DNA of 64,000 nucleotides from Coptis chinensis (taxonomy: Eukaryota; Streptophyta; Magnoliopsida; Ranunculales; Ranunculaceae). The DNA lies in contig CM027385.1 of NCBI GenBank assembly GCA_015680905.1, positions 84,713,501 to 84,777,500 of the forward strand. Direction: 5' to 3'. The notes under the pieces were generated by a model, which did not search any database, had not been told where the DNA came from, and was given only the letters and a program-made list of their open reading frames with translations. Shown piece after piece: positions 30,641 through 63,828 of the stretch. Position 1 is the stretch's first letter; each line of letters opens with the position of its first letter. A program made the translations under genes and the position numbers.

Positions 30641-30798
30641 TCAGAAAATTTATTGCTATAGAAGTTTATTTTTGGTAACCTAATATATAGCAATTTTTTT
30701 CTTTTTTTTGGGGGTAAACTAATATACATCAGGGTTTTTTTTTTTTTTTTTTTTTTTGGTAACCTAATATACACCATTTTTTTTATAACCTAATATAA

Positions 30799-31407
30799 AA
30801 TGTCTCTGACATAATCATGTCAGTATTTGAAACCTGGAAAATGTCGACAATGTGCTGCACGGTCCCCGAAAGAATCCAATCTACTCGTTTTGCAAACAGG
30901 GCATAAACCACCGTCAGAGTACAAATGAATCATGAGATGGTACCGGAGAATAGAACGATACTCCACCGGCGACGTACACTATTCAAGTTCCTCCATCGGA
31001 ATAACAAGTAGAAAATCCTTTACGTGTTCCGACTGCAAACATCCCATGACTACTTTTTGACGACCAGATAAATCAAACTCCCTCTTGAGACCTGCAACAA
31101 TCCTACCGTAGAACGGTTCTGCCAAAACTTGTTGTGGTTTTGAAGGGACGTTAACATTTACAACCAGAGAATTGAGGTCAAAATCGGGTAGGTAGAGACT
31201 TAATTAATGCACTGCTAGCAACATCAAGAATCTCATCCAAAGACACTGGACCACAACTCCTAAGAATGTGGTTCTGAAGCTTAGAAGTCTAAAAATGGGA
31301 TGCCACAAAAGCAAATGTTGAGACATCAGCGGCACAATAAATACCTAAACCACCCAGAGGTAATGGGAGTGTCGATAAACGCCACTCCAAATTGCCTCAG
31401 ACATCAG
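30799..31407 (-). repeat. Array core 1
   Basis: Complete core. The LQNH-proximal codon is TAG, as in most copies. Ends in TCAGACATCAG on the plus strand, preceded by linker at 30645-30798 with T-runs of over 20. Confidence 0.8.
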
Positions 31408-31488
31408 TTTTTTTTTTTGATAACATAATATACACAATTTTTTTTTGGTAACCTAATATACACCATTTTTTTTGGTAACCTAATAAAA

Positions 31489-32112
31489 AATGTCTCTGAC
31501 ATAATCATGTCTGTATTTGAAACTTGCAAAATGTTGACAATGTGCTGCATGGTCCCCGACATAATCCAATCTACTCTTTTTGCAAACAGGGCATAAACCA
31601 CCGTTAGAGTACAAAGGAATCATGAGTCGGTACCGGAGAATAGAACGATACTCCACCGGCGACATACGCTTTCCAAGTTCCTCAATTAGGATAGCAACTA
31701 GAAAATCTTTTACGTGTTCCGACTGCAAGCATCCCAGGACTGCCATTCGACGAACAAATAAATCAAACTCCCTCTTGAGACAAGCAACGTCTTGAGACAA
31801 ACAAATAAATCCTACCGTAGAACGATTCCGCCAAAACGTATTGTGGTTTGGAGGGGACGGTAGCATTCACAACCAGAGAATTGAGGACAAAATCAGGTAG
31901 GCAGAGACTCAGTGCACGACTAGCAACATCAAGAATCTCATCCAAAGGCATTGGACCACAACTCCTAAGAATATGGTTTTGAAGCTCAGAAGTCTAAAAA
32001 CGGGATGCCACAAAAGCAAATGTAGTGACATCAGTGACACAATAAATACCTAAACCACCCAGACATAATGGGAGTGTCGATAAACGCCACAAACAAATTG
32101 CGAAGACATCAT
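31489..32112 (-). repeat. Array core 2
   Basis: Complete core with about 20 extra bases near 31790 (a short AAGCAACGTCTTGAGACAAAC duplication). TAG at the diagnostic site. The rest of the domain is open over more than 100 codons. Confidence 0.8.
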
Positions 32113-32200
32113 TTTTTTTTTTTTGGTGACATTATATACACAATTTGTTTTTTTTGGTAACCTAGTATACACCATTTTTTTTTTGGTAACCTAATAGAAA

Positions 32201-32801
32201 ATGTCTCTACCATAAGCATGTCGGTATTTGAAACACGGAAAATGTCGACAATGTGTTGCATGGTCTCGAAAAGCATCCAATCTACTTTTTTGCAAGCGGG
32301 GCATAAACCACCGTCATATATGGTACAAAGGAATCATGAGATGGTACCGAGAATAGAACGATACTCCACCGGCAACATACGCTGTCCAAGTCCCTCCATT
32401 TGAATAGCAACTTAAAATTCTTTAAGTGTTCCGACTGCAAGCATCCAATGACTGACTTTTGACGAGAAGATAAATCAAACTCTCTCTCAAGACCAGTAAC
32501 AATCCTACCGTAGAACGCTTCCGGCAAAACAGTTGTGGTTTTGAGGAGACGGTTGTATTCACAACCAGAGAATTGAGATCAAAATCGGATAGGCAGAGAA
32601 TCAATGCACTGCTAGCAACATCAAGAATCTCATCTAAAGGCACTAGACCACAACTTTTAAGAATGTGGTTCTGAAGCTCAAAAGTCTAAAAATGGGATGC
32701 CACAAAAGCAAATGGGGAGACATTAGTGGCACAATTAATGCCTAAACCACCCAGACGTAATGAGTGTCTATAAACGACACTGCAAATTGCAGAAGGCATC
32801 A
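32201..32801 (-). repeat. Array core 3
   Basis: Complete in length but with several small indels, so the frame breaks repeatedly. TAG at the diagnostic site. Its CxxC region is altered (TGCAAGCGGGGCAT on the plus strand). Confidence 0.8.
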
Positions 32802-32802
32802 T

Positions 32803-33049
32803 TTTTTTTGGTAACCTAATATACATCTGTTTTTTTTTTTGGTAACCTAATGTACATCCGTTTTTTTTTGGTAACCTAATATAGATTAGTTTTTTTTTTT
32901 GTTTTTTGTTTTTTGTTTTTTGTTTTTTTTTTATCGTAACCTAATATACACCATTTATTTTTTTTTGGTAACCTAATATACCTCAGTTTTTTTTGTTTTG
33001 TTTTGGTAACCTGTATACACCATTTTGTTTTTTTGATAACCTATTATAA
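32803..33049. repeat. Long linker with (TTTTTTG) runs
   Basis: Seven or eight linker units in tandem, including a (TTTTTTG)n stretch near 32890-32928. Unit ends alternate between ACACCA and ACATCAG. Confidence 0.8.
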
Positions 33050-33656
33050 ATTGTCTTTGACATAATCATATCGGTATTTAAAACCTGGTAAATGTCGACA
33101 ATGTGATGCACGGTCTCCGAAAGCATCCAATCTACTATTTTTGCCAACAGGGCATAAACCACCGTCAGAGTACAAAGGAATCATGAGACGGTACCGGAGA
33201 ATAGAACGATACTCCACCGGCAACATACGCTGTCCAAGTTCCTCTATCGTAATAGCAAGTAGAAAATCCTTTACGTGTTCCGATTGTAAACATCCCATGA
33301 CTGCCTTTTGACGAGTACATAAATCAAACTCTCTCTCGAGACCAGCAACAATCCTACCATAGAACGCTTCCGCCAAAATGTGTTGTGGTTTTGAAGGGAC
33401 GGTAACATTTACAACCATAGAATTAAGGTCAAAATCGGGTAGGCAGAGACTCAATGCATTGCTAGCAACATCAAGAATCTCATCCAAAGGCACTGGATTA
33501 CAACTCCTAAGAATGTGGTTATGAAGCTCAGAAGTCTAAAAACGAGATGCCACAAAAGCAAAATATAGAGACATCGGTAATAATAAATACCTTAAACCAC
33601 CCCCTCGACAGAATGGGAGTGTCGATAAACACCATCGCAAATCGCCCGAAGCCATC
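33050..33656 (-). repeat. Array core 4
   Basis: Complete core. From the Met of MPLDEILDVASNAL to the core end the frame is open for 149 codons (33493-33044). TAG at the diagnostic site. The second Cys of CxxC is replaced (CPVGKNSRLD). Confidence 0.8.
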
Positions 33657-33718
33657 GTTTTTTTTTTTTTTTTTTTTTGGTAACTTAAACTGCATTTTTT
33701 TTGGTAAGCTAATATAAA

Positions 33719-34319
33719 ATGTCTCTGACATAATCGTGTCGGTATTTGAAACTTGGAAAATGTCGACAATGTGCTCATGGTCCCCGAAAGAATCCAATCT
33801 ACTATTTTTGCAAACAGGGCATAAACCACCGCCGAGTACAAATGAATCATGAGTCCAGATCGAGAATAGAACGATACTCTACCGGCAACATATGCTGTCC
33901 AAGTTCCTCCATCGGAATTGCAAGTAGAAAATCATTTATGTGTTCTGAATGCAAACATCCCATGACTGCCTTTTGATGAGCAGATAAATCAAACTCCCTT
34001 TCGAGACCAGCAACAATCCTACCGTAGAACGCTTTCGCCAAAACGTGTTATGGCTTTGAGGGGACGGTTGCATTCACTACCCGAGAATTGAGGTAAAAAT
34101 CGGGTAGACAGAGACTTAATGCACTGCTAGCAACATCAAGAATCTCATCCAAAGGCACTGGACTACTACTCCTAAGAATGTGGTTCTGAAGCTCAGAAGT
34201 CTAAAAACTGGATGCGACAAAAGCAAATGTAGAGACATCAATGGCACAATAAATACCTAAACCACCCAGACGTAATGGGAGTGTCAATAAAGGCCACTTT
34301 AAATTGCCAAAGCCATCAT
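33719..34319 (-). repeat. Array core 5
   Basis: Complete core with a few small deletions (near 33775 and 33855). TAG at the diagnostic site. The linker that follows is where the 34334-41093 insertion landed. Confidence 0.8.
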
Positions 34320-35232
34320 TTTTTTTTGGTAACTGTACGCACAAAAATATGTACCTAGGTCTATGCAATTGATTTTAGAGTCGCCACTTACTTTATTAAG
34401 GAAAAGTTGAGCCTATGTGAAGGACTAGCCCTCGAAACTAGATGATTATTGGGTTCGGGAGTCAAGGTACGTTGTGGGAAGGTGTTAGGCACCCACACTC
34501 GCCTGGTAAAAACCAGCCTTACTTCTATTGAGGTGTAATGTTTTGAGATAGGTGAATGAAGAAAGCTTGAAATTTTATTGCCATGTTGGATGATCTTCAC
34601 TAAATTATTTAAAGACCTAATAACTATATGCTATATAAAAAAAAAAAAAAAAAAACCTAATATGCAATGCTAAATGAAACAAAAGAGAAAAGAAAGATGT
34701 CACCTTGTTTGGAATGTTGCCTCATATTGATTGTAGATTGATTGATTGATTGTTGATCTTGATTGATTGTTGATGAATGATGATGATGAATTTGATTTTG
34801 AATTGACAACTTTGATTTTTGGATTGAAACAGGTGATTTGAGAGAAGAAACAACTTTTGATGAAATGGAGCTTCTACTCAAGATTGAACTAGGGGAAAAG
34901 ATGACTAAAATGAAGAACTAGAAAGAAAGATTGAAGAACACTCAAGAAACTGAAGAACACTAAAGAAAAGACTACTAGGCTATTAGCTATGAATAACTAG
35001 CTGAAGATGTTTTTTGTGGGTGAATGAGACCCCTATTTATAGTTTTTTGGGATGGATTTCAATATGGTAATGATTTTGATCTAATGGCTGAGTGTTGATG
35101 AAGAAAAATCCAATGGCTTGATATCTTTCTGGATGCACCTCCTAAATCTGGCCCTTGATTCAAGAGGTGGGATAAGGGTGCGATCTTGGCCCCTCGATTT
35201 TTGGATCTTTTAGATGGATTAGGGCAAGCAAA

Positions 35233-35561
35233 TGATGAGACTTCGGTTCTTGAGTCTAAATATTAGATTGAATTGATCCTTTGATTAGAGATCAACTACC
35301 AATAGTCTTTTGATTAGAGACTAAAACTACATTTTTCTATAATATGAATTCAATCGATAGATTTAAAGAACAATCCTACGACCTTTATATAGGTCCAAAC
35401 CCTAACAGTTTCCTACTATAACTAGGAAACAATATTCACAATATTCTTTAAATAGTAATTTACTTAAAATAAACTCTTAAGGCACATAGGTGTGTGATGC
35501 GCGTAGAGCTCTAGCTGTCTGTCTGGTGAATGGTCTGGCAGTTGGAGTTGGTGTCTCAACA
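35233..35561 (-). repeat. 3' LTR of chromovirus 1
   Basis: Ends are TG...CA. A TATA-type box, CTATATAAAGG, lies on the minus strand near 35380-35391. Confidence 0.9.
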
Positions 35562-38500
35562 TCCCCGCGCCCTTCAAACAAGGCTTGACTGCAAGGCTTA
35601 AGCTGAGGAAAATGCTGCATCAGTTGTGAAAAATCTTCCCAAGTAGCCTCGTCTGATGAAAATCCTTCCCATTGCACTAACCACTCCGTTGTACCTTCAT
35701 TAGTGAGCTTCGTCTCTAAAATTTGGTGTGGAATCCAAGTTGTACTGTCTGGCTGAATTGGTAGGTCATCTGAAACAGGTTGATTTGCCCCCAAGGACCT
35801 CTTTAATAAAGAGACATGAAAAACTGGATGAATCTTGCAACCTGATGGTAACTATAATTTGTATGCCACAGCTCCAATTTTCTGGATAATTTTAAATGGT
35901 CCGTGAAACTTTGGAGATAGTTTAGTATATGCTTGAGAGGCAGTAGTTGTTTGCCTATACTTCTGTAATCTTAAGTAGACCCAGTCATCTAACTTAAACT
36001 CTCGTTCTGTTCGCTTGGTGTCTGCCAAAATCTTCATACGCTCTTGAGCTGCAATCATATTTTTCTTTAGAATCCTCAAGGTCTCATCTCTGCTACGTAG
36101 GTTTACGTCTATGGCATGAACAGCGGTTGTGCCTGGTATGTGCTGTAGAATCGAAGGTGGAGTTCTCGCTATAAACCGCCTTCAAATGGAGTCATCTTGA
36201 TTGTAGCTTGATATGTACAATTATACCACCATTCTACCCATGGAAGAAATGTAACCCAAGTAGGCGATTACGTCACCGCTAAAACATCTTAGGTAGCATT
36301 CCAAAAATTCTATTTGTTACCCTCCGTTTGACCGCCGATTGTGGGTGATATCTTTGAGGCTGCGACACAACTTAGTGTTTTGTAACAAGAAAAAGACTCC
36401 CAAAAATTACCTATAAATATAGGGCCACAATCACTTACAATTGACCTAGGAGGTCCATGAAGCTTGACCATGTCTCGAACAAAAATCTCAGCAATCTTGC
36501 TTGCAGTATAAGGATGTGCAATAACGCTAAAATGAACATATTTAGAGAGCCTGTCAACCACCACAAGAATGACTGTTTTGTTCAGCGAACGAGGTAGACC
36601 TTTGATGAAGTCCATAGATAGGTCAATCCAAACATCTTCAGGTACTGGTAGTGGATTAAGTAATCCCGGAGGAGCCATGGATTCTACCTTGTTTCTTTGA
36701 CAAATATCACAATGAGCAATAAAAGCTTTAATTGAAGTCTTCATTCCTTGCCAGGAAAAACTTGTTTGAAGTCGCTTGTAGGTCCTTAGAAACCCGTGAG
36801 TGTCCTCCTGCTAGAGAGACATGGAATTCTTCTAGCAATTTGTCACACCACAAGAATGTGGGGCTACTACCAATCTTCCTTTATAGAGCAAGGTGTTAGC
36901 CTCATAAGTGAAGAACTTACGTGAAGATGGATCTCGCTTTGATGGCTTCTATTAAGGCTTGCATGGTAGGGTGGGAAGAACATTACTATTTCTACAACCG
37001 TCAAAGATAGGCCGGAGAGTGCGAGTACTTCATCGACTTGAGGGGACCTTGACAAAGCATCTGCAGATTGATTGTGCTTGCCAGGGCGGAAACATATCTC
37101 ATAATCGTATCCTAAAAGTTTAGATACCCACTTTTGCTGCTCTAACGAATTTAATCGTTGCTCGTTGAAGTATTTCAATGTTCTATGCATGGTCTGTGAA
37201 GATCTTGAAATGTCATCCCAGCAGGTAGGGTCTCCACTTTTGTACCGCGGCAATGACTGCCAGCATTTCCTTGTCGTAGATAGGTAGAGACAGATTTCTT
37301 CCTGCTAATGCCTTACTGAAATAAGCAATTGGCATGCCCTTTTGCATTAAAGCTGCACCCAAACCATTTCCTGATGCATCGCATTCAATATAGAATTCCA
37401 TGGTAAAATCTGGTAATGCTAACACTGGGGTTGTGGTAAGAGCAAGTTTAGGTCATTAAATGCAACAGTGGCAACAAGACTCCATTCATACGAATCCTTT
37501 TTAAGCATCTGAGTGAAAGGGCCGCTAATCTTGCTATAGTCCTTTACGAATTTTCTATAATACCCTGTCAACCCGAGGAACCCACGAAATTCTTTGATGT
37601 TGGATGCAAGTGGCCACGGTCACTATGTTAATCTTTTCAGCGTCGGCGGAGACACCGGTTGCATCTATAATGTGCCCAAGATAGGCAATAGAGGATTTAT
37701 TTAAGCGAACACTTAGATCGTTGACAAATAGTTTGTGTTTTCGCAATATTTCCAATACTTTGTGGAGGTGTAGCACATGTGAGGACTCGTCCTTGCTATA
37801 TACCAATATGTCATCAAAGAAAACCAATACGAACGGTCGAAGATAGGGATGAAACAACTCGTTCATCAAGCTTTGGAATGTTGCTGGTGCGTTAGAGAGG
37901 CCAAAGGGCATAACTATGAATTCATAGTGTCCATCATGGGTCCTAAATGTTGTCTTAAGAATGTCACTGTCATGTACCCTAATTAGATGATAGCCATCCC
38001 TAAAGTCGAGTTTAGAAAATATTGTGGCATTGTGAAGTTCATCCAATAACTCGTCCACAACTGGAATTGGAAAACAATCTTTGATGGTGATGGCAGTAAG
38101 GGCTCTATAATCGACGCATAAACGCCATGAGCCGTCTTTTTTCTTGACTAGTAAAATGGGAGAAGAGAATGGGCTGGAGCTAGGTCGAATAAAACCTGAC
38201 ATGTGGAGTTCTTTAACAATTTTTTCGATTTCGGCTTTTTGAAAGTGAGGATATCTGTATGGTCTGACACTGACAGGTGAGGAATTTGGTTGGAGGGGTA
38301 TGCGGTGGTCATGTGTTCTAGGAGGTGGTAAGCTCTGTGGAACTCCAAATATATTAGCAAATTGAAGAAGTAAGCTTTGTAGGGATACCTGATGTGGTTG
38401 TAGATGAATTTTCTGAGATGCTCCCCGCGATTGAATAAGTAACCGGATGGCCCAAGGAAAGTAGGTATACTTGTTTCTCTTGCTAGATTGCCTTTGTCAT

Positions 38501-39920
38501 TGTTGGAGAGTCGATGAGCTTGACCAATGGGGAACCATTACCCATTATTGTAAAGACTTGGTTATTAGCAGAGAATTGCATGACTAACTGCCCAAAGTCC
38601 CATTGTATACAGCCTAGTGTATGAAGACATTGTGTGCCAAGCACAATGTCACAACTTTTGATAGCAAGAACTGTGAAATCTGTGGTGAAATTGAATCCTT
38701 TGCACTTGTACTTTAACGCATCTAACACACGCCTTTACTTGGTAAATATCCACCATCGCGATCATTACTTGGAGTGTGGCATAACTGGTGATAGACAGAC
38801 CACAACGGCAAGCTGTTGTCGGATGGATGAAATTGTGAGTTGATCCTGAATCGACGAGCACAGATAGAGGTGTATGCTTAATTAGCGCTGAGGTACGCAT
38901 TGTGCTAGACCGAAATGATCCCTCGAGCGCATGCAGAGATACTTGAATGATGTCTTCTTGGTCCTTGGACTGGTGATCATCGGTGAAACCCTCTTGGTCT
39001 TGCTCTGGTGAGTACGCATCCAGTAGTAGCAATTGAGTTGTCATACAACGATGGCATGGCTTATAAATGTCGTCACAGTTAAAACATAGGCCTTTTTCTC
39101 TCCCTGCTTTTTGCTCAACCCATGAAAGGCGTTTAACTCCCGTTGGCAGCAAAGGATTCGAGGAGTTAGGTTTATGGTTACTGATCGGGTTAGGGTGTTT
39201 GGTATATTGGTGATAGGGATTGGTTGTTGCATGGAACGACTTAGTAGCCTTTATCGCATCCTCTTGACATAATGCTAACTCAAAAGCATGGGACAAACTT
39301 GTAGGTGTTAGAAGACGGACTCCTGCCTGTATATCAGTTCTTATTCCTGAAAGGAATAGATTGACTTGGTGAGCCTCTTGTAAATCCGGAACCAAGTTAA
39401 CCATTGTTTCAAATTGTAAGATATAGGCAGAGACTGTACCTGTTTGCACCAATTTAGATATTGCACTCATAGGATCCAGATTTTTTCTCGAACCGAATCG
39501 TTTACAAAGGGCCCTAGAAAATTGATTCGACGTTAAATCTCCCATCGAATTATAGAGCCACCTGTACCAAGCGACTGCTTCTCCACGGAGATGAATAGAG
39601 GCCATGGTGACCTGTTGTGCAGGAGGCATAAGATTCAAACTAAAAAATTGTTCCACTTGAAAAATCCATCCTTCAAGTTCCTCTCCTTCAAAGCGGGGAA
39701 AATCCAAGTGAAGTGGTTGTCCCTGGATATTGTCCTGCTGTTGAAGTCGTTGATGAGGGTTTAGCGGAATAGGATTAGGACTATCAACCCTATCAAGCAG
39801 GCGCTGCATGTTTGTGGTGAGATCGTTGAGGAGGGTGGTGTGATTGCCGAGCGTGGTGGTGTGGGTGGCCAGGGTATCCGCATGTCTTCCTATAATCTCC
39901 TCAAGTTCTTTTACTGTCAT
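35477..39920 (-). pseudogene. Gag-pol of chromovirus 1, interrupted
   Basis: In order on the minus strand: gag from the ATG at 39920 with a capsid-like region and a CFNC...HRC zinc knuckle (near 39070); protease with [11 protein letters not shown] (near 38860); RT at 38202-37555 with [15 protein letters not shown] and the active site FFDDILVYS; RNase H at 37425-37213 with ECDASGNGLGAAL; integrase at 36744-36310 with an HCDICQRNK zinc-binding end and DRLSKY and VSDCGPIF catalytic motifs; and a chromodomain at about 35740-35620 with EWLVQWEGFSSDEATWEDF. Stops and frameshifts separate these pieces (for example near 38650, 37555, 37213, 36310 and 35850), so the copy cannot make the polyprotein. 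Confidence 0.9.
35562..35574 (-). other. Polypurine tract of chromovirus 1
   Basis: AAGGGCGCGGGGA on the minus strand directly before the 3' LTR; primes plus-strand synthesis. Confidence 0.8.
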
Positions 39921-39956
39921 GGTGAAGAAGAAAAAAAAATTGAGATAAATCGACTG

Positions 39957-39968
39957 GCTCTGATACCA
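39957..39968 (-). other. Primer-binding site of chromovirus 1
   Basis: TGGTATCAGAGC on the minus strand, three bases inside the 5' LTR; complementary to the 3' end of initiator tRNA-Met. Confidence 0.9.
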
Positions 39969-39971
39969 AGA

Positions 39972-40299
39972 TGATGAGACTCAGTTCTTGAGTCTAAATA
40001 TTAGATCGAATTGATCCTTTGATTAGAGATCAGCTACCAATAGTCTTTTGATTAGAGACTAAAACTACCTTTTTCTATAATATGAATTCAATTGATAGAT
40101 TTAAAGAACAATCCTACGACCTTTATATAGGTCCAAACCCTAACAGTTTCCTACTATAACTAGGAAACAATATTCACAATATTCTTTAAATAGTAATTTA
40201 CTTAAAATAAACTCTTAGGGCACATAGGTGTGTGATGCGCGTAGAGCTCTAGTTGTCTGTCTGGTGAATGGTCTGACAGTTGGAGTTGGTGTCTCAACA
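39972..40299 (-). repeat. 5' LTR of chromovirus 1
   Basis: Partner of 35233-35561. Sequence outside it (ACAAACAAACC) resumes the solo LTR. Confidence 0.9.
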
Positions 40300-41108
40300 A
40301 CAAACAAACCCTAGACGACCTCAATGAGCCCATAATCCAGAGTTTCCAAACTTGGCTCCAAAATAGCATATTCTCTAGAATATTCTTGATTTTAGGGATC
40401 AAATCAAATCAAACAATTAAGGAAGGTTCTCTAGATTTTTGGAGGTTTGAAAATGGGCTAGAAAATCTAATGAAAAGGTCCAACTCGAGCTAGATCCACA
40501 GCCCACGAGCACAAGTCCAAATCAACCAAAAGGCCCATTTTGACCATTTTCTTAACACTTGAAATTCCCTTTGACCGGGTCAAAATTAGGCAAGCTCTTC
40601 TTCAAAAAAATTGTTCATTAATCCATTAAGAAGGTCCATGAACTCTTTAAAATACCCTTGGGTCAAAAACTTACTCCAAAAATGTATTGCACTGAACAAC
40701 GCACACAACGGGTTGTAACGGGATATGGTAAGATTAGGGTTTCGGAAATCCAAAAAGAACCTAAGCAAGCTTGTACTCATTTTGAAGGATTTTTCAAGGG
40801 GAATTCAAATAATAATCTCATCCAAAGAAAGAGTGGAAAAATTGAGATTTGGGCTCCAAAGGGTTACAATGGCATTTTGTTCATTTTCAGCTCGAAATTC
40901 AGAAAGCAACGAAACTTCAGCCATAGCTAGAACATGATTAGGAGAGTCTAAAAATGCTAAGAGAAGATGAAAAGAAAGAAGTTTGAAGTAGAAAAGAAGA
41001 CTCTAGAAAGCAAATCACTTTATATGATCAAATTTAATTCAAGGCAAAATCGTGAATGAATTATGCCTGGGGTGCAAAAAAGGGGTGTCTACAGTAACCT
41101 AATATAAA

Positions 41109-41786
41109 ATGTCTCTAACATAATCATGTCGGTATTAGAAACCTAGAAAATGTTGACAATGTGCCGCATGGTCCCCCAAAGCATCCAATTTACTATTTTT
41201 GAAAACAGGGCATAACCATCGTCAGAGTACAAAGGAATCATGAGACAGTACCGGAGAATAGAACGATACTCAACTGGCGACATATGCTGTCCATGTAAAT
41301 CCATCGGAATAGCAAGTAGAAAATCCTTTACGTGTTCCGACTGCAAGCATCTCATGATTACCTTTTGACGAGCATATAAATCAAACTCCCTCTCGAGACA
41401 AGCAACAATCCTACTGTAGAACGCATCCGACAAAACGTGTTGTGGTTTTTAGGAGACGGTAGCATTCACAACCAGAGAATTAAGGCCAAAATTGGGTAGG
41501 CAGAGACTCAATGCACGACTAGCAACATCAAGAATCTCATCCAAAGGAACTGCACCACAACTCCTAAGAATGTGGTTCTGAAGCGCAGAAGTCTAAAAAC
41601 GGGATGCCACAAAAGCAAATGTAGATACAATAGTGGCACAATAAATACCTAAACCACCCATACGTAATGAGAGTGTCGATAAACACCACTGCAAATGTAG
41701 AGACATCAGTGGAACAATAAATTTCTAAACAACCCAAACATAATTGGAGTGCCGATAAACGCCACTGCAAATTGCCGAAGCCATCA
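41109..41786 (-). repeat. Array core 6
   Basis: Longer than usual: about 80 bases near its upstream (minus-strand) end are duplicated, so GTAGAGACATCAGTGG and CCACTGCAAAT occur twice. TAG at the diagnostic site. First core after the large insertion. Confidence 0.8.
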
Positions 41787-41879
41787 ATTTTTTTTAATTT
41801 TTTTTGGTAACCTAAATATACATCAGTTTTTTCTTTGGTAGCCAAATATACACCATTTGTTTTTGGTAATTTAATATAA

Positions 41880-42488
41880 AATGTCTCTAACATAATCATG
41901 TCGGCATTAGAAAACTGGAAAATATCGACAATGTGCGGCACGATCCCCGAAAGCATCCAATTTATTCTTTTTGCAAACAAGGCATAAACCACCGTCAGAG
42001 TACAAAGGAATCATGAGACGGTACTGGATAATATAACGATACTCCACCGGCAACATACGCTGTCCATGTCAATCCATCGGAAAAGCAAGTAGAAAATCAT
42101 TTATGTGTTCTGACTGCAAGCATCCCATGATTGCCTTTTGATGAGCAGAGAAATCAAACTCCGGCCCTCTTGAGACCAGCAACAATCCTACCGTAGAATG
42201 CTTCCGACAAAACATGTTGTGTTTTAGAGGGGACGGTAGCATTCAAAACCAGAGAATTGAGGTCAAAATCAGGTAGGCAGAGACTCAATACACGACTAGC
42301 AACATCAAGAATTTCAGGCAAAGGCATTAAACCACAACTCCTAAGAATGTGGTTCTCAAGCTCAAAAGTGTAAAAATGGGATGCCACAAAAGCCAATGTA
42401 GGGAAATCAGTGGCACAATAAATAACTCAACCACCCAGACGGAATGGAAATGTCGATAAATGCCACTGCAACTCGCCAAACCATCAGT
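41880..42488 (-). repeat. Array core 7
   Basis: Complete core. At the diagnostic site it has TAC rather than TAG, so the reading frame passes through (SHFYTFELENHIL). The frame breaks near 42165 by an extra GGCC-type insertion. Confidence 0.8.
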
Positions 42489-42717
42489 TTTTTTTTGGTA
42501 ACCTAATATACACCATTTGTTTTTTGGTAACGTAATGTACATCAGTTTTTTTTTTTTTTTTTGGTAACCTAGTATACACCGTTTTTTTTTTGGTAACCTA
42601 ATATACATCAGTTTTTTGTTTTTGTTTTTTTTTGGTAACCTATTATACATCAAGTTTTTTTTTTTTTTTTTTTTGGTAACATAATATACCATTTTTTTTT
42701 TGGTAACCTAATATAAA

Positions 42718-43320: not shown

Positions 43321-43658
43321 TTTATTTTAGTAACCTAATATACATAAATTTTTTTTTTTTGGTAACATAATATACACAATTTTTTTTTGTTAACCTAATC
43401 TACATCATTTTTTTTGGTAACCTAATATACACCATTTTTTTTGGCAACCTAATCTACATCTATTTTTTTTTTATCGTAACCTAATATAAACCATTTATTT
43501 TTTGGTAACCTAATATAAACCATTTTTTTTTTTTGGTAACCTAATATACACAGTTTTTTTTTTTTTTTTTTTTTTTTTGGTAAACTAATATACATCAGTT
43601 TTTTTTTTTTTTTTTGGTAACCTAATATACACCATTTTTTTTGATAATCTAATATAAA
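43321..43658. repeat. Long linker, about ten units
   Basis: Includes variant units GTTAACCTAATCTACATCA, GGCAACCTAATCTACATC and ATCGTAACCTAATATAAACCA in an order repeated at 48589-48860. Confidence 0.8.
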
Positions 43659-47802: not shown

Positions 47803-47984
47803 TTTTGTTTTTGGGTAACCTAATGTATATCAAGATTTTTGTTCTGTTTTTTTTTTTTGGTAAACTAATATACATCAGTTATTTTTATTTTTATTTATTT
47901 TTTATAATTGAGAATACCATATGTTTTTTTTTTTTTTTTACGTAACCTAATATACACCATTTTTTTTTGGTAACCTAATTTAAA

Positions 47985-48588
47985 ATGTCTCTGACATAAT
48001 CATGTCGGTATTTGAAACTTGGAAAATATCGACAATGTGTTGCATGGTCCCCGAAATAATCCAATATACTCTTTTTGCAAACAGAGCATAAACCACGATC
48101 AAAGTACAAAGGAATCATGAGTGGGTACAAGAGAATATAACGATACTCCATCGGCGACATACGCTGTCCAAGTTCCTCAATCGTAATAGCAAGCAGAAAA
48201 TCTATTACGTGTTCCGACTGCAAGCATCCCATGACTGTCTTTTGACGAGCAAATAAATCAAACTCCCTCTCGAGACAAACAACCATCCTATCGTATAACG
48301 CTTCTGCCAAGGCTTGTTGTGGTTTTGAGGGGACAGTAGCATTCACAACCAGAGAATTGAGGTTAAAATCGGGTAGGCATAGACTCAATGCACTGCTAGC
48401 AACATCATGAATCTCATCCAAAGGTACTGGACCACAACTCCTAAGAATGTGGTTATGAAGCTCAAAAGTCTAAAAACGGGATGCCACAAAAGCAAATATG
48501 GGGACATCAGTGGCACAATTAATACCTAAACCACCCAGACGTAATATGAGCGTCAATAAACGCCACTCCAAATCGCCGAAGTCATCAT
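47985..48588 (-). repeat. Array core 13
   Basis: Complete core with TAG at the diagnostic site and 148 open codons after it (48421-47975). Confidence 0.8.
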
Positions 48589-48736: not shown

Positions 48737-48785
<49 letters not shown>

Positions 48786-48970
48786 TTTATCGTAACCTAA
48801 TATAAACCATTTATTTTTTGGAAACCTAATATAAACCATTTTTTTTTTGGTAACCTAATATACACCAGTTTTTTTTTTTTTTTTTTTGGTAAACTAATAT
48901 ACAGCGGTTATTATTATTATTATTTTTGGTAACCTAATATACACCATTTTTTTTTTATAACCTAATATAA
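48589..48970. repeat. Longest linker, with a T-run of about 50
   Basis: About ten units, in the same variant order as 43321-43658 and 43951-44091, including the (TTA)n stretch near 48908. The T-run at about 48731-48780 is the longest in the window and its length should be treated with caution. Confidence 0.8.
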
Positions 48971-48971
48971 A

Positions 48972-49573
48972 ATGTCTCTGACATAATCATGTCGGTATTT
49001 GAAACCTGAAAAATACCGACAATGTGTTGCACGGTCCCCGAAATCATCCAATCTGCTCTTTTTGAAAACAGTGTATAAACTACTGTTAGAGTACAAAAGA
49101 ATCATGAGTCGGTACCGGAGAATATAACGATACTCCACCGGCGACATACGCTGTCCAAGTTCCTCCATCGAAATAGCAAGTGGAAAATCCTTTACGTGTT
49201 CCGACTGCAAACATCCCAAGACTGCCTTTTGACGAGCAGATAAATCAAACTCCCTCTCGAGACCAGCAACAATCGTACCGTAGAACACTTCCGCCAAAAT
49301 GTGTTGTGGTTTCGAAGGGATGGTTGTATTTACAACCAGAGAATTGAGGGAAAAATCGGGAAGGCAGAGACTCAATACATTGCTAGCAACATCAAGAATC
49401 TCATCCAAAGGCACTGGACCACAACTCCTTGGAATGTGGTTCTGAAGCTCAGAAGTCGTAAAACTTAATGCCACAAAAACAAATGTAGAGACATCAGTGA
49501 CACAATAAATACCAAAACCACCCTGACGGAATGGGAGTTCGATAAACGCCAATGCAAATCGCCGAATCCATTA
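48972..49573 (-). repeat. Array core 14, fully open
   Basis: 196 open codons (49552-48962), diagnostic codon ACG, as in core 10. CxxC replaced (YTVFKKSRLDDFGD). Confidence 0.85.
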
Positions 49574-49761
49574 GTTTTTATTTTTCGATAGTTTATTTTA
49601 TTTTTTTTGGTAACCTAATATACATCAGTTTTTTTGTTTTTTTTTTTTTGTAACCTTGTATACATTAGTTTTTTTATTTTTTTTTTTATAATTTAAAATA
49701 CATTAGGTTTTTTTTTTTGGTAATCTAATATATACAATTTTTTTTGGTAACCTAATATAAA

Positions 49762-50364
49762 ATGTTTCTGACATAATCATGTCGGTATTTGAAACTTGGA
49801 AAATATCGACAATGTGCTGCATGGTCCCCGAAAGAATCCAATATACTCTTTTTGCAAACAGAGCATAAACCACGGTCAGAGTATAAAGGAATCATGAGTC
49901 AGTACAAGAGAATAGAACGATACTCCACCGACAATATACGGTGTCCAAGTTCCTCAATCATAATAGCAAGCAGAAAATCTATTACGTGTTCCGACTGCAA
50001 GCATCCCATGACTGCCTTTTGACGAGCAAATAAATCAAACTCCCTCTCGAGGCAAACAACAATCCCCTCAGATAACTTACGCTGCAAGGCTTGTTGTGGT
50101 TTTGAGGGGACTGTAGCATTCACAACAAGAGAATTGAGGTCAAAATCTGGTAGGCAGAGACTCAATGCACTGCTAGCAACATCAAGAATCTTATCCGAAG
50201 GTACTAGACCACAACTCCTAAGAATGTGGTTCTGAAGCTCAAAAGTCTAAAATGGGATGCCACAAAAGCAAATGTAGAGACATCAGTGGCACAATAAATA
50301 CCTAAACCACCCTGACGGAATGGGAGTTCGATAAACTCCTCTGCAAATCACCGAAGACATCAGT
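49762..50364 (-). repeat. Array core 15
   Basis: Shares with core 11 the missing T at the diagnostic site and the upstream end GGGAGTTCGATAAACTCCTC. A small indel cluster near 50070 breaks the frame. Confidence 0.8.
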
Positions 50365-50538
50365 GTTTTTTTTTTTGAAACCTAATGTATATCAGGTTTT
50401 TTGTTTTGTTTTTTTTTTTTGGTAAACTAATATACAATAGTTTTTTTTTTTATAATTTAAAATACAATAGGTTTTTTTTTTTTTTTTTTGGGTAACCTAA
50501 TATACACCATTTTTTTTTTTTTTGGTAACCTAATTTTA

Positions 50539-51143
50539 AATGTCTCTGACAGAATCATGTCAATATTTGAAACTTGAAAAATGTCAACAATGTGTTGCTT
50601 GGTTCCCGAAAGAATCCAATCTACTCTTTTTGAAAACAGGGCATAAACCACCGTCAGAGTACAAAGCAATCATGAGTCGGTACTGGAGAATAGAACGATA
50701 CTCCACCGGCGACATACGCTGTCCAACTTCCTCCATCAGAATAGTAAGTAGAAAATCCTTTACTTGTTCCGACTGCAAAAATCCCATGACTGCCTTTTGA
50801 AGAGCAGATAAATCAAACTCCCTCTCGAGACCATCAACATTCCTACCGTAGAACGCTTCCACAGAAACGTGTTGTGGTTTGGAGGGGACGATAGCATTTA
50901 CAACCAGAGAATTAAGGACCAAATCGTTTAGGCAGAGAATCAATGCACGACAAGCAACATCAAGAATCTCATCCAAACAGACTGCACCACAACTCCTAAG
51001 AATGTGGTTCTGAAGCTCAGAAGTCTACAAATGGGATTCCACAAAAGCAAATGTAGAGACATCAGTGGCACAATAAAGACCTAAACCACACAGACGTAAT
51101 GGAAGTGTCGATAAACACCACTACAAATTGCCGAAGGCATCAT
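50539..51143 (-). repeat. Array core 16
   Basis: Complete, TAG at the diagnostic site, 130 open codons (50976-50584). Counterpart of core 12 in its downstream part. Confidence 0.8.
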
Positions 51144-51235
51144 TTTTTTATTTTTTTATTTTTTTGGTAACATAATATATACAATTTTTTATTTTTTTTA
51201 GTAACATACCATTTTTTTGGGTAACCTAATATAAA

Positions 51236-53117
51236 ATGTCTCTGACATAATCATGTAGATATTTGAAACCTGGAAAATGTCGACAATGTGCTACATGGTC
51301 CCCAAAAGCATTCAATCTACTCTTTTTTACAAACAGGACATAAACCACCTTCAGGGTACAAAGGAATCGTGAGACGGTACTGGAGAATTGAACGATACTC
51401 CACCGGCGACATACGTTGTACAAGTCCCTCCATTTGAAAAGCAAGTTGAAAATTATTTACGTGTTCCGACTGCAAACATCTCATGACTGCCTTTTGATGA
51501 GCAAATAAATCAAACTCCCTCTCGAGACCAGCAACAATCCTATCGTAGAACGCTTCCTCCAAAACGTGTTGTGGTTTTGAAGGGACGGTAGCATTTACTG
51601 ATAGGGTTATATACTAAAAGCATTACTTTTGAATTAACTCTAATTCTTTATATTTTAAATAAGAATCAAATGTTATGCATATTATATATGTTATTAGTTA
51701 TATGCATGTGTCTAATACTTTATGTTGTAGATGATATGGTGTGTAGTGACACACAGAATATCATATCATCAGTACCTAGCTTATAAAGTATAAGTAAACG
51801 TTCACAACCTAAATGGATTGGACAAACCATTGGTAAGGTTGTAGTATAATCTGGTATTAGTCTATCTTGACTATAGGATTGCACTAGTACACTTTGTGTG
51901 TATTGAACAGGACCAAGTGAGGTTGTTTATTTTTATACTGACTATATAAGAGAACAAACACCTCTGTTATTATAGATGTTTGTCCTCTTAATCCGGATAT
52001 AATAACGGGCATTTACGTGCATTGTACATTGCTTTAAATCATCAATGAGTGAAATTCATTTGTGAATCAACAAACTCGATGGATTGGGTAATGACATTGT
52101 ATGTAAGGTTTGCTTTTGATTATAGAAGGAATCCATGACCCACAGGAAGTCGTGTTGATGATGTCCCCTTGTGGAGCTTAAAAGGATTGTCATGTAAACC
52201 CTGCAGGTGGATTTATTCCAATATGACAATGAGGTTGAGTGGTACTACTCAAGGACATAAGAAGTTGATTAATGTAGTTGTCAATAACTTGACTTAATCA
52301 ACGGGCATTTGGTATCTTAAACATGGGGAGATCAACAAGCATATAATATAAAGTCCATAAACATAACACGTAATTTGGGATTTGGGCGGTAGTGCAACAA
52401 TGGCCTTTAGTGGAATAAGCCATTTGTTGACGGACTTGGGTCGTGTGTTCTGGGGGAACATAGGAAGCCCAAGCCTGGCAGGAGGCCCAATCCTAATTTC
52501 TCCTCATGGTCCCTGTTGTAGCCTATAAAAACAAACCCTTCTCTCCTGGCCGAATTCACAGTTCATTTTGATTGAAAAAGAGAGACAAAAAAAGATAGAT
52601 CCAAAATCAGTTCTAGCTTTGTGAGTGAGATAGGCCAAGAGAGAAAGAAGGGGGTTGTTAGATCGTTGCCCGCACAACGTCCAATCTATTGATAGGAATA
52701 CAACAGAAAATCAAGAGGTTGCTGATCTCATAGCCATTGGATTCTCAGAGTTATCTTAGCTGATCCAAAAGTACCATATCTAACCAAACCGTGACACCCC
52801 TTATTCCGCTGCAAGTGGGTGTTTCGCAGTTTGTAGTAAATCATTCGGCGAAAACATAATGGTTCCTATATTTACAACCAGAGAATTGAGGTCAAAATCG
52901 GTTAGGCAGAGACTCAATGCATTGCTAGAAAAATCAAGAATATCATCCAAAGGCACTAGACTACAACTCCTAAGAATGTGGTTCTGAAGCTCAGAAGTCT
53001 AAAAATGGGATGCCACAAAAGCAAATGTAGAGACATCAGTGGCACAATAAATACCTAAACAACCCAGACATAATGGGAATGTCAAGAAACGCCACTGCAA
53101 ATTGCCGAAGACATCAG
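51236..53117 (-). repeat. Array core 17, split by a solo LTR
   Basis: The core occupies 51236-51598 and 52876-53117, around the LTR and one copy of TTTAC. TAG at the diagnostic site. Confidence 0.85.
51599..52870 (+). mobile_element. Solo LTR, 1272 bp, target duplication TTTAC
   Basis: Starts TGATAGGGTTATATAC and ends GGTTCCTATA; TTTAC flanks it at 51594-51598 and 52871-52875. The expected terminal CA reads TA. CTATAAAAAC near 52523 on the plus strand is a good LTR promoter box, followed by sequence typical of a transcribed LTR end (ACACCCCTTATTCCGCTGC). A Ty1/copia origin is possible but not shown. Confidence 0.85.
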
Positions 53118-53201
53118 TTTTTTTTTTGGTAACATAATATACACAATTTTTTTTTTTTTTGAAAACCTAATATACACCATTTTTTTGGTAACCTAATATA
53201 A

Positions 53202-53804
53202 AATGTCTCTAACATAATCATGTCGGTAATTGAAACCTGGAAAATGTCGACAATGTGCTGCATAGTCCCCGAAAGCATCCAATCTACTCTTTTTTGCAAA
53301 CAGGGCATAAACCACCGTCAGGGTACAAAGGAATCATGAGACGGTATCGGAGAATAGAATGATACTCCACCGGCGACATACGCTGTACAAGTCCCTCCAT
53401 TTAAATAGCAAGTTGAAAAATCTTTACGTGATCCGACTGTAGGCATCCCATGACTGCCTTTTGATGAGAAGATAAATCAAACTCCCTCTCAAGACCGCGA
53501 CAATCCTACATCAAACGCTTCGCCAAAAACATGTTGTGGTTTTGAGGGGACAGTTGCATTCACAACCAGATAATTGACATCAAAATCGGGTAGGCAGAGA
53601 CTCAATGCACTACTAGCAACATCAAAAATTTCATCCAAAAGAACTAGACCACAACTCCTACGAATGTGGTTTTGAAGCTCAAAAGTCAAAAAATGGGATG
53701 CCACAAAAGCAACTGAAGAGACAATAGTTGTAAAATTAATACCTAAACCACCCAAACGCAATGGGAGTGTCAATAAATGCCACTGCAACTTGCCGAAGAC
53801 CTCG
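53202..53804 (-). repeat. Array core 18
   Basis: Diagnostic codon TTG, so the upstream part is open (HFLTFELQNHIRRSC); the frame breaks near 53510 where bases are missing. Confidence 0.8.
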
Positions 53805-53899
53805 GTTTTTTTTTTTTTTTTTTTTTTGAAACATAATATACACAATTTTTTTTTTTGGTAACCTAATATAAACCATTTTTTTTGGTAATCTAATATAAA

Positions 53900-54503
53900 A
53901 TGTCTCTGACATAATCATGTGGGTATTTAAAACCTGGAAAATGTCGACAATGTGATGCATGGTCCCCGTAAGCATCCAATCTACTCTTTTTTGCAAACAG
54001 GGCATAAACCACTGTCAGGGTACAAAGGAATCATGAGACAGTACCAGAGAATAGAACGATACTCTATCGGCGACATACGTTGTACAAGTCCCTCCATTTA
54101 AATAGCAAGTTGAAAAGTCTTTACGTGTTCCGACTGCAAGCATGCCATGACTTCCTTTTGTCGAGAAGATAAATCAAACTCCCTCTCCAGACCAGCAACA
54201 ATCTTACCGTAAAACGCTTCCGCCAAAACATGTTGTGTTTTTAAGGGGACGGTTGCATTCACAACCAGAGAATTATGGTAAAAATCGGGTAGGCAGAGAC
54301 TCAATGCATTGCTAGCAACATCAAGAATCTCATCCAAAGGCACTGGACCACAACTCCTAAGAATGTGGTTCTGAAGCTCAATAATCTGAAAACGGGATGC
54401 CACAAAACCAAATGTAGAGACATCAGTGGCACAATAAATACCTAAACCACCCTGACGGAAGGGGAGTATCGATAAACGACATTGCAAATCGCCGAAGCCA
54501 TCA
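53900..54503 (-). repeat. Array core 19
   Basis: Diagnostic codon CAG (Gln), one transition from TAG; reads SRFQIIELQNHILRSCG. Open for 129 codons (54487-54098), then interrupted. Confidence 0.8.
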
Positions 54504-54668
54504 ATTTTTTTTTTTTGGTAGCCTAATGTACATCAGTTTTTTTTTTTTTTTTTTGGTAACTTAATATACATCAATTTTTTTTCTTTTGGTAAATTAAAAT
54601 ACATTAGTTTTTTTTTTTTTTTTTTGGTAACCTAATATACACATTTTTTTTTAGGTAACCTAATATAA

Positions 54669-55273
54669 CATATCTTTGACATAATCATGTTATTATTTCA
54701 AACTTGGAAAATGTCAACAATGTGCTGCATGGTCCCCGAAAGAATCCAATCTACTCTTTTTACAAACAAGGCATAAACCACCTTCAGAGTACAAAGGAAT
54801 CATGAGTCGATACCGGAGAATAGAATATTACTCCTCCGGTGACATACGTTGTCCATGTTCCTTAATCAGAATAGCAAGTAGAAAATCTTTTACGTGTTTC
54901 GACTGCAAGCATCCGATGACTGTCTTTTGACGAGCAAATAAATCAAACTCCCTCTCGAAACAAGCAACAATCCTATCGTAGAACACTTCCGCCAAAACAT
55001 GTTGTGGTTTTGAGGGGACGGTAGCATTCCCAACCAGAGAATTGAGGTTAAAATCGGGTAGGCAGAGACTCACTGCACGACTAGCTACCTCAAGAATCTC
55101 ATCAAAAGGCACTGGATCACAACACCTAAGAATGTGGTTCTGAAACTCATAAGTCTAAAAATGGGATGCCACAAAAGCAAATGTAGAGACATCAGTGGCA
55201 CAATAAATACCTAAACCACCCAGACGTAATGGGAGTGTCGATAAACGCCATTGCAAATTGAAGAAGACATCCG
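54669..55273 (-). repeat. Array core 20
   Basis: Complete, TAG at the diagnostic site, 94 open codons from MPFDEILEVASRAV. Shares LEVASRAVSLCLPD with core 22. Confidence 0.8.
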
Positions 55274-55399
55274 CTTTTTTTTTTTGGTAACCTAATGAAC
55301 ATTAGTTTTTTTTTTATTTTTTGGTAACCTAATATACATCAGTTTTTTTTTTTTTTTGTACCCTAACATACACAATTTTTTTTTTGATAACCAAATATA

Positions 55400-55690
55400 A
55401 AATATCTCTAACATAATCATGTCGGTATTTGAAACCTGAAAAATGCTGACAATGTGCTACGCGGTCCCCGAAAGCATCCAATCTACTCTTTGTGCAAACA
55501 GGGCATAAACCACTGTTAGGGTGCGAAGGAATCATGAGACGGTAGGAGAATAGAACTATACTCCACCGGCGACATACGTTGTTCAAGTCCTTCCATTTAA
55601 ATAGCAAATTGAAAAATGTTTACGTGTTCCGACAAAAGCAATTGAAGAGACAATAGTGGCACGCGCCACTGCAAATCTATGAAGCCATCA
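55400..55690 (-). repeat. Array core 21, internal deletion
   Basis: Both ends are present but about 310 bases are missing at TGTTCCGAC/AAAAGCAATTG (near 55633). Confidence 0.8.
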
Positions 55691-55866
55691 TTTTTTTTTG
55701 GTAAACTAATAAACATAAGTTTTTTTTTTGGTAACATAATATACACCATTTTTTTTTTTTTTTGTAACCTAATATACATCAGCTTTTTTTTTTTGGTATT
55801 TAAAATACACTTGTTTTTTTTTTTGTAACGTAATATACACCAATTTTTTTGGTAACCTAATATAAT

Positions 55867-56473
55867 ATGTCTCTGACATATTCATATCGGTATTTGAAAC
55901 TTGGAAAATGTCGACAATGTGCTGCATGGTCCCCAAAAGAATCCAATCTACTCTTTTTGTAAACAGGGCAAAAACTAACCACCGTCAATGTACAATGGAA
56001 TCATGAGTCAGTACCGGAGAATAGAACGATACTCCACCTGCGACATACGCTGTCCAAGTTCTTCAATCGAAATAGCAAATAGAAAATCTTTTAAGTGTTC
56101 CTACTGCAAGCATCCCATGCCAGCCTTTTGACGAGCAAATAAATCAAACTCCCTCTCGAGACAAGCAACAATCATTCTGTAGAACGCTTTCCCCAAAATG
56201 TGTTGTGGTTTTGTGGGGATGGTAGCATTCACAACCAGAGAATTGAGGTCAAGATCGGGTAAGCAGAGACTCACTGCCCGACTAGCTACCTCAAGAATCT
56301 CATCCAAAGGCACTGGACCACAACACCTAAGAATGTGGTTCTGAAGCTCAGAAGTCTAAAAATGGGATGTCACAAAAGCAAATGTAGAGACATCAGTGCA
56401 CAATAAATACCTAAACCACCCAGACGTAATGGGAGTGTCGATAAACGCCACTGCAAATTGCCGAAGACATCAG
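55867..56473 (-). repeat. Array core 22
   Basis: Complete, TAG at the diagnostic site; few indels, including one near 55973 in the CxxC region. Confidence 0.8.
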
Positions 56474-56552
56474 TTTTTTATTTGGTAACATAATATACAC
56501 AATTTTTTTTTGGTAACTTAATATACACCAGGTTTTTGGTAACCTAATAAAA

Positions 56553-57157
56553 AATGTCTCTAACATAATCAAGTCATTATTTGAAACCTGGGAAATGTCG
56601 ACAATGTGCGGCATGGTCCCCGAAAGCATCCAATCAACTCTTTTTTGCAAACAGGGAATAAACCATTGTCAGGGTACAATGGAATCATGAGACGGTACCG
56701 GCGAATAGAACGATACTCCACCGGTGACATATGTTGTACAAGTCCCTCCATTTAAATAGCAAGTTGAAAAATCTTTACGTGTTCCGACTGCAAGCTTCCC
56801 TTGACTGCCATTTGTATAGAAGATAATCAAACTCCCTCTCCAGACCAGCAACAATCCTACAGTAGAACGTTTCCGCCAAAACATGTTGTGGTTTTGAGTG
56901 GAAGGTTGCATTCACAACCAGAGAATTGAGCTCAAAATCGGGTAGGCAAAGACTCAATGCACTGCTAGCAACATCACGAATCTCATCCAAAGGTACTGGA
57001 CCACAACTCCTAAGAATGTGGTTCTGAAGCACAAAAGTCTAAAAACGGGATGCCACAAAAGCAAATATAGAGACAATAGTGGCACAATTAATACCTAAAC
57101 CACCCAGACGTAATGGGAGTGCCAATAAACGCCACTGCAAATCGATGAAGCCAGCAT
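56553..57157 (-). repeat. Array core 23
   Basis: Complete, TAG at the diagnostic site; a base is missing near 56822. Confidence 0.8.
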
Positions 57158-57287
57158 TTTTTTTTTTGGAATCCAAATATACATCTGTTTTTTTTAGTAA
57201 CATAATATACACTATTTTTTCATTTTTTTTGGTAACCTAATATATATCAGTTTTTTTTTTTTTTTTTTTATGGTAACCTAATATATA

Positions 57288-57318
<31 letters not shown>

Positions 57319-57361
57319 GTAATCTAATATACACCATTTGTTTTTGGTAACCTAATATAAC

Positions 57362-58014
57362 ATGTCTCTGCCATAATCATGTCGGTATTTGAAACTTGGA
57401 AAATGTCGATAACAATGTCGCATTGTTCCCAAAACATCCAATCTAGTCTTTTTGCAAAAGCGAGTAAAAACCATCGTCATGGTACAAAGGAATCATGAGA
57501 CGGTACCAAAGAAAAGAACGATACTCCACCAATGACTTACGCTGTCCAAGTCCCTCCATTTGAATAGTAAATACTCCACCGGTGACATACACTGTCCAAG
57601 TCCCTCCATTTGAATAGTAAGTTGAAAATTCTTAACGTGTTTCGACTGCAGGTATCCCATGACTGCCTTTTGACGAGAAAATAAATCAAACTCCCTCTCA
57701 AAACTAGCAACAATCCTACCGTAGAACGCTTCCGAGAAAACGTGTTGTGGTTTTGAGGGGACGATAGCATTCACAACCAGAGAATTGATGTCAAAATCGG
57801 GTAGGCAGAGACTCAATGCACAACTAGCAACATCAAGAATCTCATCCAAATGCATTGGACCACAACTCCTAAGAAGGTGGTTCTGAAGCTCAAAAGTCTA
57901 AAAATAGGATGCCACAAAAGCACAAGTTGAGACATCAGTGGCACAATAAATAACTTAACCACCCTGACGGAATGGAAGTGTCGATAAACACCACTGAAAA
58001 TCGCCGAACTCTTC
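57362..58014 (-). repeat. Array core 24, with internal duplication
   Basis: About 55 bases (TACTCCACC...CTGTCCAAGTCCCTCCATTT) occur twice near 57520 and 57570. TAG at the diagnostic site. Confidence 0.8.
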
Positions 58015-58339
58015 ATTTTTTTTTTAGTAACCTAATGTACATCATTTTTTTTTTGGTAACCTAATATACGTCAGTTTTTTATTTTCTTTTTTTTTTGGTA
58101 ACTTAAAATACATTTTTTTTTTTTTTTCCGTAACCTAACATACAACATTTTTTTTATAATATCCTAATATACACCATTTATTTTTGGTAACCTAATATAC
58201 ATAAGTTTTTTTTTTTTTTTTGGTAACTTAATTTAGACCAGTTTTTTTTTTTTTTTTTTTTTTGGTAAATTTATATACACCAGGTTTTTTTTTTGGTAAC
58301 CTAATATACACCATTTTTTTTTTTGATAACCTAATATAA
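58015..58339. repeat. Long linker, about nine units
   Basis: Tandem GGTAACCTAATATAC-type units with T-runs up to about 22. Confidence 0.8.
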
Positions 58340-58613
58340 AATGTCTCTGACATAATGATGTCGGTATTTGAAACCTGGAAAATGTCGACAATGTGCTGCA
58401 CGGTCCCCATAAGCATCCAATCTACTCTTTCCGGAAAGATGGAATAATTCAAAGGCATTGGACCACATCTCCTAAGAATGTGGTTCTGAAGCTCAGAAGT
58501 CTATAAACGGGATGCAACAAAAGCAAATGTAGAGACATCAGTGGCATAATAAATACCTAAACCACCCTGACGGAATGGGAGTGTCGATAAACGCCAATCG
58601 CAAATCTAAAACC
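58340..58613 (-). repeat. Array core 25, internal deletion
   Basis: About 330 bases are missing in the middle (near 58430). TAG at the diagnostic site. Confidence 0.8.
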
Positions 58614-58887
58614 ATTTTTTTTTTTTTTTTTTTTTTTTTGGGTAACTTAATGTACATTTTTTTTTTTTTTTTTTGGTATCCTAATATACACCATTTTTTT
58701 TTAGTAACCTAATATACATCAGTTTTTTTTTCTTTTCTTTTTTATTAACCTAATGTACATCTGTTTTTTTTTTTTTTTAATCGCAACCTAATATACACTA
58801 TTTTTTTTTTGGTAAACTAATATACATCAGAGTTTTTTCTTTTTGGTAACCTAATATACACCATTTTTTTTTATAAACTAATAGAAA

Positions 58888-59064
58888 ATGTCTCTGACAT
58901 AATCATGTCGGTATTTGAACCTGGAAAATATCGAGAATGTGTTGCACGGTACCCGAAAGCATCCAATCTACTCTTTGTGTAAACATGGCATAAACCACCG
59001 TCAGAGTAAAAATGAATCATGAGACGATACCAGATAATAGAACGATACTCTACCGGTAACATAC
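58888..59064 (-). repeat. Array core 26, cut by chromovirus 2
   Basis: The downstream end of a core up to TACCGGTAACATAC. The rest should lie beyond the window if the element is complete. Confidence 0.8.
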
Positions 59065-63779: not shown

Positions 63780-63813
63780 GGTGAGTAAAAAAAAATTTGA
63801 GAGAAATCGACTA

Positions 63814-63825: not shown

Positions 63826-63828
63826 AGA

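Follow-up and report, generated by a model that had tools for sequence, protein, structure and literature searches.

Organization of the locus

In the window, the whole 64-kb stretch of Coptis chinensis DNA that was analysed, a ~606-bp core is repeated about 26 times head-to-tail, and its copies alternate with A-tract minisatellite linkers (TGRTGTATATTAGGTTACC plus an A-run). The array reads from right to left, with cores from 59064 down to 30790 (Table 1). A remnant of a LINE, which we take to be L1-type, lies near its low-coordinate edge, and two PPR-domain ORFs are located further away. With one core as BLASTN query, the window yielded 30 pieces between 30790 and 59064, all on the minus strand (30/30). 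Two short pieces of 92 bp (41692-41783) and 51 bp (47744-47794) were dropped, leaving 28, and 26 copies were obtained by rejoining 51226-51598 with 52869-53109, which are split by an insertion, and 58331-58430 with 58447-58606, which flank an internal deletion. The array spans 28,420 bp and is cut by the window end; gaps taken as inserts account for 9,595 bp, and the rest is 18,825 bp. The earlier note had described a two-level tandem array of cores and minisatellite linkers, with about 26 same-orientation copies over more than 28 kb (~18.8 kb without inserts); BLASTN and span arithmetic bear out both the arrangement and the figures, the strand being minus.

Table 1. Features of the array and its surroundings in the window.
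Feature	Position	Strand	Basis
PPR-domain ORF with E motif	4348-6042	minus	
PPR-domain ORF	19627-21141	plus	
LINE remnant	28516-29681	minus	zf-RVT and RNase H-like (RVT_3) domains
Entire visible part of the composite array	~30,645..59,064	minus	core matches and linker motif
Terminal linker, last minisatellite monomers, low-coordinate edge	30641..30789	minus	
Core copy	30790..31396	minus	BLASTN
Typical 83-bp short linker with 3 minisatellite motifs	31397..31479	minus	
Core copy	31480..32089	minus	BLASTN
Core copy	32191..32794	minus	BLASTN
Core copy	33041..33654	minus	BLASTN
Core copy	33709..34315	minus	BLASTN
Insertion, TG...CA ends, 5-bp target duplication GTAAC in linker motif	34334..41093		
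Core copy, 92-bp partial repeat of its own 5' end at 41692-41783	41099..41696	minus	BLASTN
Core copy	41872..42480	minus	BLASTN
Core copy	42708..43312	minus	BLASTN
336-bp long linker with 11 matches to the motif	43313..43648	minus	
Core copy, 5'-truncated	43649..43951	minus	BLASTN
Core copy, open frame of 202 codons	44083..44691	minus	BLASTN and ORF
Core copy	44869..45472	minus	BLASTN
Core copy, remainder 47744-47794 past an insertion	45642..46201	minus	BLASTN
Solo-LTR-like insertion TGATAA...TTATCA inside core, 5-bp target duplication ACCAC	46202..47744		
Core copy	47975..48580	minus	BLASTN
Core copy, open frame of 202 codons, 94.3% identical to 44083-44691	48962..49570	minus	
Core copy	49752..50355	minus	BLASTN
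Core copy	50530..51135	minus	BLASTN
Core copy split by solo-LTR-like insertion (51226-51598 + 52869-53109)	51226..53109	minus	
Solo-LTR-like insertion, TG...TA ends, in core, target duplication TTTAC	~51599-52870		
Core copy	53193..53797	minus	BLASTN
Core copy	53890..54500	minus	BLASTN
Core copy	54660..55258	minus	BLASTN
Core copy, truncated	55394..55633	minus	BLASTN
Core copy	55857..56465	minus	BLASTN
Core copy	56544..57153	minus	BLASTN
Core copy, ~50 bp internal duplication (TRF period 50, 57521-57620)	57352..58008	minus	
Core copy, internal deletion (core 169-509 missing)	58331..58606	minus	BLASTN
3' part of core copy (core 422-609), cut by Gypsy insertion	58878..59064	minus	
Gypsy LTR element that interrupts the array and extends past the window end	59065..64000		

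Twenty-one of the 28 pieces are longer than 540 bp, and their consensus is 606 bp. These near-full cores share a mean pairwise identity of 86.2% (range 83.3-94.3) and are 89.6-94.2% identical to the consensus, which found no match in 20/20 windows shuffled in 3-base blocks. Where the array is uninterrupted, the cores are mostly spaced 665-990 bp from start to start. BstEII sites (GGTNACC) number 53 within the array and 5 elsewhere in the window. The Gypsy LTR from 59065 interrupts a core at position 422; hence, the right edge is likely not the end of the array, which probably continues beyond the end of the window at 64000.

With ≤2 substitutions allowed, the 13-base linker motif ATATTAGGTTACC has 109 minus-strand matches, which lie from 30686 to 58857; in the whole window, it was found neither on the plus strand nor outside the array. 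Each linker contains 2 to 11 matches to TATATTAGGTTACC (≤4 substitutions, with the motif at the core's own end counted), and an A-run follows each motif. The long linker at 43313 shows 80% global identity to the linker 48581-48961. At the 5' side of the cores, the junction TGATGNNTTYGG (≤2 substitutions) is present at 20/23 ends and three depart from it, while the 3' junction GACATTTTATATTAGGTTACC (≤3 edits) is present at 25/26 ends and one departs. Since the junctions recur on both sides, one composite unit was multiplied. In sequence, the linker monomer looks like the 5' edge of the core (CTGATG) fused to the 3' edge (TATATTAGG). The six bases preceding the motif (n = 122) are ATGGTG in 21 cases, ACATTT, which is the core's own end, in 20, CTGATG in 13, ATTGTG in 9, and others.

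Source protein of the core

According to the translated matches, the core corresponds to residues 711-910 of P0006, a ~1,070-aa plant protein with an RT at 397-595, which agrees with the earlier note in placing it downstream of the RT of a plant retroelement-like protein. Neither the RT nor any endonuclease part of the donor was found in the 64-kb window, where RT domains of other elements are present. P0002, from Coptis chinensis itself, is 78.8% identical to the core consensus over 146 aa. Residues 369-546 of P0006 match R2 chains in the PDB with E values of 1.2e-7 and 1.5e-7; retron-type and group II intron RTs score slightly above these chains, which means that the RT match is not in itself specific to R2. 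In the predicted model of P0001, which contains most of the core and the C-terminal domain, R2 structures are the first matches, and the CCHC and RPxD...D residues are conserved. The donor has a CCHC knuckle followed by a predicted PD-(D/E)xK-type endonuclease; in both sequence and fold, this predicted restriction-like endonuclease and the RT are similar to those of R2 proteins. Judged by sequence and model, the core comprises the post-RT linker and CCHC knuckle of such an R2-like protein. The likeness to the proteins of R2 non-LTR retrotransposons lies in the RT, the CCHC and RPxD...D residues, and the predicted fold of P0001, whereas the array keeps only ~200 residues of the protein.

A plant family (P0004-P0123; P0006 369-1067) has an RT and a CCHC knuckle together with a predicted restriction-like endonuclease, and both its sequence and its fold are R2-like. 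Named members occur in Ranunculus, Trifolium, several Asteraceae, and Orobanche, and some are labelled 'exostosin' or 'auxilin-like'; this points to R2-like proteins of flowering plants that are filed in databases under unrelated names. Among the literature matches listed, no title concerned R2-type elements in flowering plants.

Elements inserted into the array

Three gaps in the array correspond to inserted elements that have LTR-type ends and are flanked by target duplications of 5 bp. The largest, at 34334, holds a nested Gypsy element whose LTRs (35232-35561 and 39971-40299) are 97.3% identical, and gag and RT domains lie within the insertion. The Gypsy element at 59065 probably inserted recently, since its two visible LTR stretches show no difference over 172 bp. 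This element (59065-64000) and the nested one (35233-40145) are 90.7% identical to each other.

Such LTR-type elements inside the array could suggest that the array is itself a stretch of a larger mobile element, either a Helitron or an LTR element with internal tandem repeats, and the available portion of PMC7004042 describes tandem-repeat-carrying retroelements as a frequent source of satellites in the legume studied. However, the four insertions sit within cores or linkers, and three are flanked by target duplications, which marks them as later arrivals and the array as older than these elements. The absence of the donor's RT and endonuclease parts from the window also argues against a larger element, and we consider it unlikely.

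Divergence and mode of amplification

The tree of the 21 near-full copies is star-like, with terminal branches making up 86% of its length, although some internal groups are supported (0.90-1.00), so the amplification was not a single instant. Similarity between copies is independent of their distance, with 0.862 for adjacent copies and 0.852-0.878 for other spacings. With a mean pairwise identity of 86% and no effect of distance, the array does not show the homogenised monomers of satellite DNA, and the term 'satellite' in its genome-wide sense, as the earlier note had used it, is not supported by one locus with ~26 copies in view. An island of a genome-wide, perhaps centromeric, satellite family would fit an array that meets a Gypsy element at 59065 and probably continues, but there is little homogenisation (~14% divergence between copies), and the window also contains PPR genes, at 4.3-6.0 and 19.6-21.1 kb; we therefore hold this reading to be improbable.

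A block of three units was duplicated within the array: 43949-46201 and 48824-51089 are 92.7% identical, linkers included, with core pairs at 94.3, 93.7, and 90.0% and linker pairs at 91 and 91%. A fourth, weaker core pair joins the copies at 42708 and 47975 (89%). The A-rich DNA after the cores might recall separate retropositions, in each of which a polyadenylated, 5'-truncated transcript was inserted, but the single orientation throughout, the recurring 5' and 3' cut points, the inclusion of linkers in the block duplication, and a core that ends short of the donor gene's 3' part, unlike a 5'-truncated insertion, make this very improbable. Tandem arrays are assembly-prone, but an artefact multiplying one or a few copies is hardly credible given ~14% divergence with private changes (singletons make up 310/531 variant states) and the distinct insertions that the copies carry.

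The copies diverge from the consensus by 0.084 (JC) on average, a value inflated by methylation decay. Between the two LTRs of the nested Gypsy element, the difference is 0.028, or 0.014 for each LTR. By these two values, the burst is several times older than the nested Gypsy insertion.

Decay of the core copies

Codon tests, like the tree, used the 21 near-full copies, with 7/28 shorter pieces left out. Substitutions relative to the consensus are evenly spread over codon positions 1, 2, and 3 (339, 331, and 336; 8.06, 7.87, and 7.99%), with changes common to related copies counted more than once, and singleton substitutions number 101, 111, and 98. The copies contain 253 synonymous and 720 nonsynonymous changes versus 246.8 and 707.7 in simulations that kept mutation type and context. 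Codon 37 of the consensus is a stop, and 16/21 copies have an in-frame stop there (TAG in 15 and TAA in 1), the others reading CAG in one copy and other sense codons in four. Neither purifying selection nor codon-position bias, as expected of a functional protein-coding repeat, was found among the 21 copies. C>T/G>A changes affect 13.3% of CG, 11.6% of CHG, and 5.2% of CHH sites; an excess of C-to-T changes at CG and CHG is expected of methylated plant DNA.

Two observations point the other way. Stop-creating changes number 33 versus 51.5 in the simulations, of which 5/1000 were as low; this shortfall is possibly a trace of past constraint or an effect of a consensus that already holds a stop. 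In addition, the two copies at 44083-44691 and 48962-49570 are open over 202 codons, which counts against a dead array, and the first ~12 codons of both frames are out of the ancestral protein's frame. On sequence evidence, the core copies look dead and pseudogenic, and no present function is indicated. The coding nature that the earlier note had attributed to the core holds as ancestry but not as present state, given the equality of codon positions and the stops at codon 37.

Origin of the composite unit

We are fairly confident in reading the array as a composite tandem repeat that was amplified locally and is now dead, in which an R2-like fragment and a minisatellite monomer were multiplied in a burst and then decayed. 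The core is a piece of an R2-like gene, cut past the RT and before the endonuclease, and at both of its ends a recurring junction links it to the monomer of an A-tract minisatellite. Presumably there was a single joining event, in which a minisatellite captured the fragment; less likely, the monomers would be coreless remnants of the unit. The composite unit may then have multiplied in a short burst with little later homogenisation, either by unequal exchange between the A-rich linkers or through rolling-circle replication of a circle that had been excised. A block of at least three units was probably duplicated once afterwards. The core copies have changed at an equal rate at all codon positions, with a C-to-T pattern that resembles methylated plant DNA, and LTR-type elements inserted later.

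If CTGATG stands just upstream of TTCGGCGATTTG at the gene of the Coptis relative IFM89_016037, the linker monomers are probably coreless units; otherwise, capture is favoured. A more speculative extension, to which we give a small chance, is that an undescribed, widespread R2-type lineage of flowering plants was the donor, that its knuckle, captured by a minisatellite, seeded the Coptis repeat, and that coreless monomers (CTGATG + TATATTAGG) drive amplification at more than one locus. Because the junctions recur and homogenisation is slight, the order of capture, burst, and decay is partly readable, and the array is a well-preserved snapshot of a retroelement fragment becoming a tandem repeat.

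Comparison with known tandem repeats

The unit is homologous to part of a retroelement and repeated head-to-tail in a single orientation, the two features of a retrotransposon-derived tandem repeat. This kind is already known, and the particular combination here is that of an R2-like coding piece with A-tract linkers, which was not found among the literature matches listed. In the sections of PMC3648361 at hand, CRM4TR of maize is a single retrotransposon-derived locus of 39 full-length ~1.39-kb units, whose consensus contains roughly 13 repetitions of an ~18-nt sequence; CRM4TR is therefore two-level too. CRM4TR and CRM1TR resemble the Coptis array as local tandem arrays that arose from a piece of a retrotransposon and later received retrotransposon insertions. 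However, they are pericentromeric and derive from the LTR/UTR of centromeric Ty3/gypsy retrotransposons instead of an R2-like protein-coding piece, and the minisatellite of CRM4TR lies inside the unit, whereas that of Coptis forms the linkers (PMC3648361).

Coding sequence also has precedents. The excerpted text of PMC9659126 names PROsat, Pvc 20, and chicken HinfI/CR1 as satellites derived from LINE ORFs, and the rye satellite E3900 (printed E900) with a partial gag frame. Their units likewise include or resemble retrotransposon coding sequence, but they belong to other clades (L1, CR1, and LTR), and that text describes no A-tract minisatellite linkers (PMC9659126). As far as these portions of PMC3648361 and PMC9659126 extend, CRM4TR and the coding pieces in satellites precede the Coptis array, and the lack of any description, which the earlier note had suggested, is not supported for the kind. 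Because each feature has a precedent, the claim for the repeat as a satellite is modest. In the available part of PMC7004042, the Ogre-derived satellites of Lathyrus are similarly tandem repeats that originated with retrotransposons, but those arrays lie downstream of the gag-pol region, outside the coding sequence. Elsewhere in the Coptis window, away from the array, a 121-bp unit forms two tandem copies with 93% identity at 16389-16630.
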